From IMG/VR virus record IMGVR_UViG_3300042505_001173, positions 1 through 64,000 of that record: DNA of 64,000 bases. One strand, 5' to 3'. The position numbers were made by a program, and so were the translations under genes. The notes beneath the pieces are model-generated. The model saw only the letters and a program-made list of their open reading frames with translations. It had not been told where the DNA came from and made no database searches. How positions within the stretch are numbered: the stretch's first letter is position 1; each line of letters begins with the position of its first letter. Positions 61,770-64,000 of the stretch are shown here, one piece after another. The DNA is from a virus.

Positions 61770-62675
61770 TTAACTATCGTCAACTATATCTTTATCATAA
61801 TTAACTTTAATTACTTTGTACGGGTATCGCGCATTTTTATAATGTGTTACACGTTTTTTCATCCTTGCATTTGCTGAATTAAAATTGCTACAAATATCTA
61901 GTACATTAACAGAATCTTTATCTTTGCCCTTTCTTAAACCTCTACCAATAGATTGTATAGTACCTACGAAAGATTTACCACTGTCTATGAAAAATAAAGC
62001 AAAAATTCTATCAATTGATAGACCGACTCCTGCAATTTGTTTAGTACATATAACAATCAAATCATTATTATGTTCAAATAAATCATACACTTCATCACGT
62101 TCCTTAACTTTATCACTACCGTGAAGGAAGTATGAATTAGGTATCAATTTTTGTAGTGTTCTACCGTACTTGATATTATTAACAAGAACTAACGTATTCC
62201 CGTGATGGTGTTTATCTCTATTAGCAACGATAAAATTAGCTATCCAGTTAGTACGAGTTTCATTTGTTTTGCAAAATTCTGTTTCTTCTTCGTACATTAT
62301 CTTATGGACGTCCTCTTCAGGAACACCATGATCGATTAAATAACGTGTATCGTTTAACTGTAAAATGTTAATATTCAGTTGAGCTAACCATCCCTTTTCA
62401 ATCAACTCATACGCAGGGTACTCACATAAAACTTTACCTAATGCGACGTGAACGTTTAACTTATCTGCAGCTGGTTCAGGTAATGTACCTGTTAGTCCGT
62501 ACCGGTGAACGAGATTTTTACCGTGCTCCGTTAACAATTGATATAATTTTGCTGCTTTACTACCATGACAATTACTAACAACTGCGCCATTAGCTACATA
62601 ATTGTGATTTTTTGAGACTTTTAAATTATAGACGATATTTGGTTTTTCAATTTCGGTACGTTTGACTAGTTTCAT
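61770..62675 (-). CDS. uvsW: C-terminal split-intein fragment fused to the C-terminal half of UvsW helicase
   Basis: A 301-residue protein. Residues 1-35 are a C-intein: 'NIVYNLKVSKNHNYVANG' (block F) and a final 'VVSN', with Ser in place of the usual penultimate His. Cys36 is the +1 residue. From there it is the helicase: 'CHGSKAAKLYQLL' completes the DEAH box, then 'VHRYGLTGTLPEP', 'VICTKQIAGVGLSIDRI' (motif V) and 'VGTIQSIGRGLRKGKD' (motif VI), matching T4 UvsW, which remodels forks and R-loops. It starts in an ATGA overlap with the 83-codon gene. Trans-splicing with the upstream product is needed for a whole enzyme. Confidence 0.87.
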   Translation of the reverse strand: MKLVKRTEIEKPNIVYNLKVSKNHNYVANGAVVSNCHGSKAAKLYQLLTEHGKNLVHRYGLTGTLPEPAADKLNVHVALGKVLCEYPAYELIEKGWLAQLNINILQLNDTRYLIDHGVPEEDVHKIMYEEETEFCKTNETRTNWIANFIVANRDKHHHGNTLVLVNNIKYGRTLQKLIPNSYFLHGSDKVKERDEVYDLFEHNNDLIVICTKQIAGVGLSIDRIFALFFIDSGKSFVGTIQSIGRGLRKGKDKDSVNVLDICSNFNSANARMKKRVTHYKNARYPYKVIKVNYDKDIVDDS

Positions 62676-62923
62676 GCGTATTTTTTAAATTTATTAGATA
62701 CTTTTGGTGATATTGTTTTTTCGCCGTTTATAGTAGATATTACATCTCCGTCACGGATAATATGTTTTTCACCGGATGTGTCAAATATATAAGGTACTAA
62801 CATTACTTTGGTACAACAATGAGGTTTATCTATATTTTTGTATTGTCTTAAATTACTAACTACCATAAACCCATCTTCCATACCCAATTCATATGTTTTA
62901 ATACTAATAATTGACCGTGACAT
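62672..62923 (-). CDS. Gene inserted between the split-intein halves, unknown (83 residues)
   Basis: 'MSRSIISIKTYELGMEDG' to 'PKVSNKFKKYA'. It is a small strand-rich protein with a Cys-Cys pair ('KPHCCTKVMLVPYIFD') and 'GDVISTINGEKTI'. It starts ten bases after the N-terminal piece ends and overlaps the C-terminal piece by ATGA. In other fractured, split-intein genes this position often holds a homing endonuclease, but I see no HNH, GIY-YIG, LAGLIDADG or PD-(D/E)XK signature. It may be a remnant, a passenger or an unrecognised factor. Confidence 0.6.
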   Translation of the reverse strand: MSRSIISIKTYELGMEDGFMVVSNLRQYKNIDKPHCCTKVMLVPYIFDTSGEKHIIRDGDVISTINGEKTISPKVSNKFKKYA

Positions 62924-62933
62924 TTAACTTACC

Positions 62934-64000
62934 TCAAAAATTAATTATTTCATGATCATCCGTGAGTTTATCCGCCCTAACATACCCATCAGTTGTTAAA
63001 AACAAATGATTACCCGTTACTTCAATTTTTACACCCGTATCAAACTCCAACTTATACATTTTTTCAGCGTTAGATTTAAGTAAGTTTTCATAAACGTTTT
63101 CTACAACATCTTCTTCGAAGATCTGACTAGCTTCGTTATATGATAATACATTTTCACCAATTTTAATATCTTTTAATATTTTTTTTGTCCCATCAACTAA
63201 TGTTATATTAGTCTCACCCGATAAACATTCATCAACTACCACCATTTGAAATTGATTTATGAGGAGTGGATAGTTTTGTAATGTTTGCCACGTTGTTACG
63301 ATATGATCATAATCAATGCTTGGGTTACCTGCATGGAAATGTGAAACATCTAATTGTAACGCTGTAAATTGCTTAATTGTTTGAGTTATTAACGATGTAG
63401 CTGGTACGATCGTTAACGTTTTACATCCTTGCTGTTTATATTTATCAACAAGAACGGCGTTCAAAATGGTGTTGTGTGTGATAATACACCCATCAGTTAC
63501 ATATAAATGATCAACATCATCAATGTATATGCATTTAGTACGCTCTTTACCCCAGTACTCTATTGATTTAACTCGTCTGTTTATTTTTTGGGTATGGTTT
63601 TGTATAGTGTGATGGTATTTGATATAATTTAACTTTTTTTCATGTGACGTGAAAAATATATCATGTATTCTGTGGGACATTGTCAATGAATGAGTTCTAC
63701 GATCCTCAGATAATTTATACCAGTTACTTAAAACACCTCCTTGCATAATTACCATTTCTGATACTTGTTCAACAAGCTTAGCGTTTTGTACAATATGAAC
63801 AGTAGTGCTACCTGAAGCTGATAGTGATCCAGTCACGTCACACATACCTTGTAAAAACGATAATCTATCTTTAGCAGCGCCGAACACATATTCTTTAGGT
63901 ATGCGGTAATCGTTGCGCATATTTTGCTCTAAAAAACTGACTAGTTTCTCACTCTGTTCAGTGGTCGGTGTTAAATACGCTCTTACCTTTAACCCGTGAG
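62934..64000 (-). CDS. uvsW: UvsW helicase middle part between an endonuclease-type intein and an N-terminal split intein (5' end beyond the window)
   Basis: The frame is open to the window edge. Upstream of 63470 is the C-terminal half of an intein with a LAGLIDADG-type endonuclease motif ('RLSFLQGMCDVTGSLSASG') and splice end 'YVTDGCIITHN'. The helicase segment (63228-63470) begins 'TILNAVLVDKYK', the Thr of Walker A, and ends 'VVVDE' of the DEAH box. At 63227 a second intein starts with Cys ('CLSGETNITLVDGTKKIL'), contains the block B 'TGNHLF' and ends by stop after 97 residues ('DDHEIINF'). So this product carries an N-terminal split intein. Both insertion points are the most conserved ATPase motifs. 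Confidence 0.88.
   Translation of the reverse strand, partial: HGLKVRAYLTPTTEQSEKLVSFLEQNMRNDYRIPKEYVFGAAKDRLSFLQGMCDVTGSLSASGSTTVHIVQNAKLVEQVSEMVIMQGGVLSNWYKLSEDRRTHSLTMSHRIHDIFFTSHEKKLNYIKYHHTIQNHTQKINRRVKSIEYWGKERTKCIYIDDVDHLYVTDGCIITHNTILNAVLVDKYKQQGCKTLTIVPATSLITQTIKQFTALQLDVSHFHAGNPSIDYDHIVTTWQTLQNYPLLINQFQMVVVDECLSGETNITLVDGTKKILKDIKIGENVLSYNEASQIFEEDVVENVYENLLKSNAEKMYKLEFDTGVKIEVTGNHLFLTTDGYVRADKLTDDHEIINF

Follow-up and report, generated by a model that had tools for sequence, protein, structure and literature searches.

Dassa et al. (2009) are reported to describe "fractured genes" that carry the gp41-1, NrdJ-1, and IMPDH-1 split inteins. The locus described here is alike in that a phage-type gene of replication or nucleotide metabolism is broken at a conserved motif by the halves of a split intein, and it is a further natural split intein in a broken phage gene, a kind already known. 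It differs in the host gene and the site of insertion. In addition, a free-standing endonuclease gene in the gap, which is one of the marks of a fractured gene, is absent from the window, i.e., the whole stretch of 64,000 nucleotides of viral DNA that was analyzed. No description of a uvsW split intein was found in the literature searched, and such an absence is no proof of novelty.

The same helicase gene is interrupted at the same DE^CH site in Salmonella phage S16/STP4-a and Proteus phage PM2, with an N-half of about 97 and a C-half of about 35 residues. The N-inteins of these loci are 47-50% identical to that of the window (50% for S16). The initial annotation regarded the split intein as new, which it is not, since it also occurs in S16, PM2, and dozens of viral contigs. 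For S16 with its relatives and for PM2, the records give no labels beyond "DNA helicase" and "hypothetical protein". These loci differ from the window in three respects: a 291-aa endonuclease-like ORF lies between the halves, no Walker A intein was seen, and the penultimate intein residue is His (AHN) rather than Ser. The unannotated presence of the intein in cultured phages makes trans-splicing directly testable.

A second intein of the window resembles the class 3 DnaB1 (DnaBi1) inteins of Mycobacterium smegmatis and M. chimaera (6bs8 and 6rix), with which it has in common the class 3 triplet, the insertion in the P-loop, and the P-loop Thr/Ser as the +1 nucleophile. A helicase that harbors both a class 3 intein in its P-loop and an intein of class 1 is already known in the DnaB protein of M. 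smegmatis, where the two act in cis (PMC6195587). In the window, the host protein is instead a UvsW-like SF2 helicase, the P-loop intein retains a degenerate LAGLIDADG domain, and the class 1 partner is split. The combination offers a natural case of two splicing mechanisms in series.

Split inteins of DNA polymerase B (PolB) are known from phages Aes123 and MIJ3, and the window phage likewise has one, at YGDTD^S, with Ser1 and Ser+1. The gap of the MIJ3 PolB split intein holds an HNH gene (PMC6892783), whereas the corresponding gap of the window phage measures 18 nt and has no ORF. This PolB element is separate from the helicase split intein, and the presence of both in one phage constitutes a natural orthogonality test.

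A helicase gene with two interrupted ATPase motifs

The locus very probably encodes a UvsW-like SF2 helicase in which each of two ATPase motifs is interrupted by an intein, one predicted to splice in cis by the class 3 route and the other, a split class 1 intein, in trans. The coordinates of the pieces are given in Table 1. The features of such a helicase are present, namely a Walker A motif (GTGFGK+T), a DEAH/DECH box (VVVDE+CH), a Helicase_C domain, and matches to phrog_16 and phrog_9690, and some of the database matches bear a UvsW annotation. Two PHROG families, phrog_16259 and phrog_9690, already collect the two kinds of half-protein, both under the label "DNA helicase". After removal of both inteins, the helicase has 495 aa and aligns with the uninterrupted relatives L007 and L100-L102 at 40-43% identity, free of gaps at both junctions. 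The last 955 bases of the N-part lie beyond the end of the window and were taken from the viral contig G000 (147,618 bases). This extension located the start of the Walker A intein, which the initial annotation had lacked, at 64511, with Ala as its first residue. Promoter-like sites occurred at about chance level, with 27 found vs. 22 +/- 5.4 in shuffled sequence.

Table 1. Positions of the helicase pieces, inteins, and neighboring features (G000:C1 marks features on the contig outside the window)
Feature	Position	Strand	Characteristics
Helicase N-part (precursor 1), 673 aa	62934-64955	minus	ORF; ends in 97-aa N-intein
Helicase C-part (precursor 2), 301 aa	61770-62675	minus	separate ORF; opens with 35-aa C-intein
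Walker A intein, 347 aa, GTGFGK^AQPRRC...CIITHN^T	63471-64511 (contig); 63471-64000 inside window	minus	class 3 triplet
Extein segment between both inteins, 81 aa, Walker A T to motif II VVVDE	63228-63470	minus	Pfam ResIII 3e-5
N-half of split intein, 97 aa, Cys1 to INF*	62937-63227	minus	TIGR01445 and PF01079 above cut-off
ORF S, 83 aa, between intein halves	62672-62923	minus	conserved in L107 (66%) and L003 (42%)
C-half of split intein, 35 aa, MKLVKRTE...AVVSN before Cys+1	62571-62675	minus	TIGR01443 above cut-off
C-terminal helicase extein, 266 aa + stop, starts CHGSKAAK	61770-62570	minus	Pfam Helicase_C 2.5e-8; phrog_9690 5.6e-48
DNA polymerase III alpha orphan fragment (bacterial-type), 176 aa	60292-60819	minus	PF07733 1.1e-10; ends before catalytic PDxD
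DNA polymerase B, split at YGDTD^S by split intein (L112)	G000:C1:120428-123046 + 123065-124006	plus	Ser1, Ser+1
T4-like portal protein (L111), contiguous intein LQGG^CFSMDTK...FVLN^SQLGEN	G000:C1:73879-77031	plus	Portal_T4 2.5e-75

Anatomy of the two inteins

The borders that the initial annotation had drawn for the split intein proved exact. The match to TIGR01445 (intein_Nterm; 31.9 bits, cut-off 24.5) begins precisely at Cys577, directly after VVVDE, and the match to TIGR01443 (intein_Cterm; 29.6 bits, cut-off 15.6) ends at the +1 Cys. The N-half also exceeds the cut-off of the Pfam Hint model (PF01079). In block A, the Cys directly follows the N-extein, as class 1 requires, and the TxxH of block B reads TGNH in the window, L107, L003, and most relatives. 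In block F, an Asn takes the place of the Asp that is usual in class 1 inteins. The C-terminus consists of Asn followed by Cys+1, and the penultimate residue is Ser instead of the usual His; this replacement is the rule among relatives (37/46).

The joined 97+35 residues align with the NpuDnaB mini-intein (4o1r) over residues 2-132 (E 5e-10). The proposed alignments with known split inteins gave weak sequence matches to NrdJ-1 (E 3e-5) and gp41-1 (E 0.0026). The fold was examined on L020, a contiguous natural homolog, with the two halves of the window included in its alignment. The model is one HINT domain (pLDDT 95.3, pTM 0.88), and its best structural matches are inteins, including NpuDnaB, SspDnaB, NrdJ-1, and gp41-1, with TM scores (query) of 0.80-0.87. 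Sequence and model alike indicate that the two independently translated halves should complete one HINT domain, and the element has the anatomy of a natural split intein of class 1. Charge complementarity was considered as evidence for pairing of the halves (window N -9, C +4) and discarded, as it holds in only 16 of the 42 split relatives. Typical natural split inteins comprise about 100 + 35-40 residues (PMC10189870), so the 97+35 split is not unusually compact, as had been suggested. Likening the element to the fastest known trans-splicers was likewise an overstatement that demonstrates no speed for the window intein.

The Walker A intein is inserted exactly at GK^T and ends in THN directly before the Walker A Thr, as had been proposed from the window. 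The class 3 signature is the lack of Cys or Ser at position 1 together with the WCT triplet, i.e., Trp in block B, Cys in block F, and Thr before the terminal HN (PMC7891396, PMC7664689). The element starts with Ala and carries this triplet (block B Trp in DHLW, block F Cys in KCIYID, and the Thr of THN), features overlooked in the initial annotation, and by its sequence it is therefore assigned to class 3. It could also be a class 2-like or inactive intein that merely starts with Ala, as Ala1 by itself fits class 2. This reading is very improbable, because Ala1, the Trp, the block F Cys, and the THN are kept in all seven homologous inteins (window, L107, L003, L020, L098, L099, and L100) and the closest matches, of which 6bs8 and 6rix are the best in the PDB, are established class 3 inteins (class per PMC6195587). 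The window, L107, and L003 share a further Cys at position 6 of this intein (Cys154 in the N-part), which is absent from L020 and L098-L100. It could conceivably act as a redox trap, by analogy with that of M. smegmatis DnaBi1.

Of the claim that the Walker A intein bears an endonuclease, the presence of the domain was borne out, whereas its catalytic positions are lost. Both motifs have lost their acidic positions in the window, L107, and L003; the window reads FGSTVPFI and MCDVTG. Both acidic motifs are retained in L099 and L100 (LGLLLGDG/LGALLGDG and LMDTDG), and L098 has LIGDA and DTDG. An active LAGLIDADG endonuclease is expected to have an acidic residue near the end of both motifs, which the window intein lacks, and its endonuclease activity has probably been lost. 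The intein is divergent, with 45% identity to L107 and a pN/pS of 0.53, and its splicing activity is therefore less certain than that of the split intein.

The break and its predicted repair

Three other explanations of the broken gene were weighed against splicing. A sequencing or assembly error within a contiguous intein-bearing gene might be considered, because the N-part and the C-part share one reading frame, with 261 bases between them, in both the window and L107. The probability of such an error is practically negligible. The in-frame stretch between the halves is full of stops in both, and the same break occurs in L107 and L003, which come from other metagenomes and whose helicase and split-intein proteins differ by 20-53%, as well as in the cultured phages S16 and PM2. 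No continuous frame is hidden in the break, because divergent relatives are broken at the same place. L107, the closest relative found, has the same gene order and the same ATGA overlap, with 65-80% identity in the exteins and the split intein. L003-L006 keep this order at 47-80% identity, and in the C-intein alone, L107 and L003 show 71-80% identity. The gene could also be undergoing loss and the pieces be pseudogene fragments, given that it is broken and that the endonuclease domain of its Walker A intein has decayed. That is extremely improbable, since in both the window and L107 the ORFs are intact, tightly packed, and joined by the ATGA overlap, and the exteins flanking the break have a pN/pS of 0.19-0.25 (window vs. 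L107) at far diverged synonymous sites (pS 0.53-0.71). These low pN/pS values, found on either side of the break, indicate that selection acts on both helicase pieces. Alternatively, the pieces might associate unspliced, like the split nrdA of phage Aeh1 or gene 43 of phage 25, with the intein halves as relics. We know of no intein halves at the breaks of those two genes. Split phage enzymes that work without ligation do exist (PMC2988022). For this helicase, such an association is very improbable, because Cys1, the TGNH block, the NHNY block, the Asn, and Cys+1 are conserved across dozens of lineages, and because the cut lies inside motif II (DE|CH), where 97+35 extra residues are expected to prevent ATP hydrolysis.

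The preferred reading remains that of a helicase restored by protein splicing. The class 3 splice of precursor 1 would begin with attack of the block F Cys on the N junction; the Walker A Thr+1 would then accept the N-extein, and the class 3 intein would leave. Separately, the 97-residue and 35-residue halves would bind and fold as one HINT domain; Cys1 and Cys+1 would carry out two acyl shifts, the Asn would cyclise, and DE would be joined to CH. The result would be the 495-aa helicase with both ATPase motifs restored. The initial identification of a UvsW-like helicase with a split class 1 intein at the DEAH/DECH box and a second intein at Walker A was upheld, and the anatomy supports its prediction that one trans and one cis splice are needed, each restoring an ATPase motif. 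We infer the occurrence and order of both reactions, as well as the inactivity of the unspliced halves.

The gap, the intein family, and further inteins

The space between the halves had been implied to be empty. It contains ORF S, which is conserved in L107 and L003 and was overlooked in the initial annotation. In the window, ORF S starts 10 bases past the stop of the N-half and is preceded by GAGG; its stop overlaps the start of the C-half as ATGA in the window and L107. Its pN/pS is 0.33 (window vs. L107), and among viral contigs it occurs only in L107 and in the group of L003. ORF S has no family match and no nuclease similarity in Pfam, PHROG, and NCBIfam, and a tblastn match in a Clostridioides phage (E 0.1) was considered to be chance. 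The predicted model is weak (pLDDT 61.5), and all Foldseek matches have E >= 0.01, a few of them to PGDYG proteins. By eye, the C-terminal half (PYIF..GEK..IRDGDVISTINGEK) also looks like small phage proteins of the PGDYG type; together with the weak Foldseek matches, this likeness is not significant.

With the window included, 47 distinct sequences form a large natural split intein family at one UvsW-like helicase site. The 46 loci besides the window, from viral contigs and two cultured phages, comprise 42 split and 4 contiguous forms; the scan was keyed on the C-intein motif and gives no measure of the frequency of the intein among all such helicases. Cys+1 is present in 46/46 relatives, and DE precedes the intein in 45/46. 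Two Methanobrevibacter metagenome assemblies (L117 and L118; 2180-4903) carry the same split helicase intein with an endonuclease-like ORF, and the intein thus reaches archaeal or archaeal-virus contigs. Of the 42 split loci, 30 have a related endonuclease-like ORF in the gap. Those tested match TnsA-like nuclease and NUMOD3 models; only the L009 match exceeds the cut-off, and by these matches the related ORF is a probable homing endonuclease. In the remaining split loci, the gap has remnants, no ORF, or other genes. The site therefore exhibits split forms with an endonuclease gene, with a remnant, without any insert, or with another gene, as well as contiguous forms, and with this series it can be tested how split inteins arise and whether the split is reversible.

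In the intein tree, the three lineages with a common layout (window, L107, and L003) form a clade (100/95) that is nested in a larger supported group, most members of which have the endonuclease ORF; contiguous forms occur at scattered positions. On the simplest history, a switch between the split and the contiguous state happened more than once, in one direction or the other. The split halves of L043 (1495-1945) overlap in different frames, and those of L052 (4611-5084) and L062 (2657-3100) are only about 40-80 bases apart; these near-gapless loci are possible intermediates between the two forms. For the window clade, the simplest and most likely history is that the split intein at first had an endonuclease gene between its halves, like that of S16, and that this gene was lost and ORF S came to occupy the gap. 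The Walker A endonuclease would have decayed as well, and because of both losses the two inteins are now probably immobile.

A more far-reaching and improbable proposal is that, in the window clade, a mobile split intein became a fixed control point, at which ORF S modulates assembly of the helicase and two splices gate its activation. It is permitted by the conservation of ORF S: three lineages retain it in the gap, and in the closest two it overlaps the start of the C-half. A dedicated ORF S would have replaced the endonuclease gene and would be co-translated with the C-half, and the two splices, which differ in chemistry (class 3 at the Walker A motif, class 1 in trans at motif II), would each fall on a catalytic motif.

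The phage has at least four inteins, of which two are split. In the split PolB gene, 18 bases separate the stop from the next start, and the intein has an RH pair that resembles the NX motif of Ser1 PolB inteins. The portal intein contains an HNH-like stretch. The DNA polymerase III alpha fragment was considered as another fractured gene and rejected, as no further PF07733 match was found in the contig. L003 and L007 have this short ORF as well.
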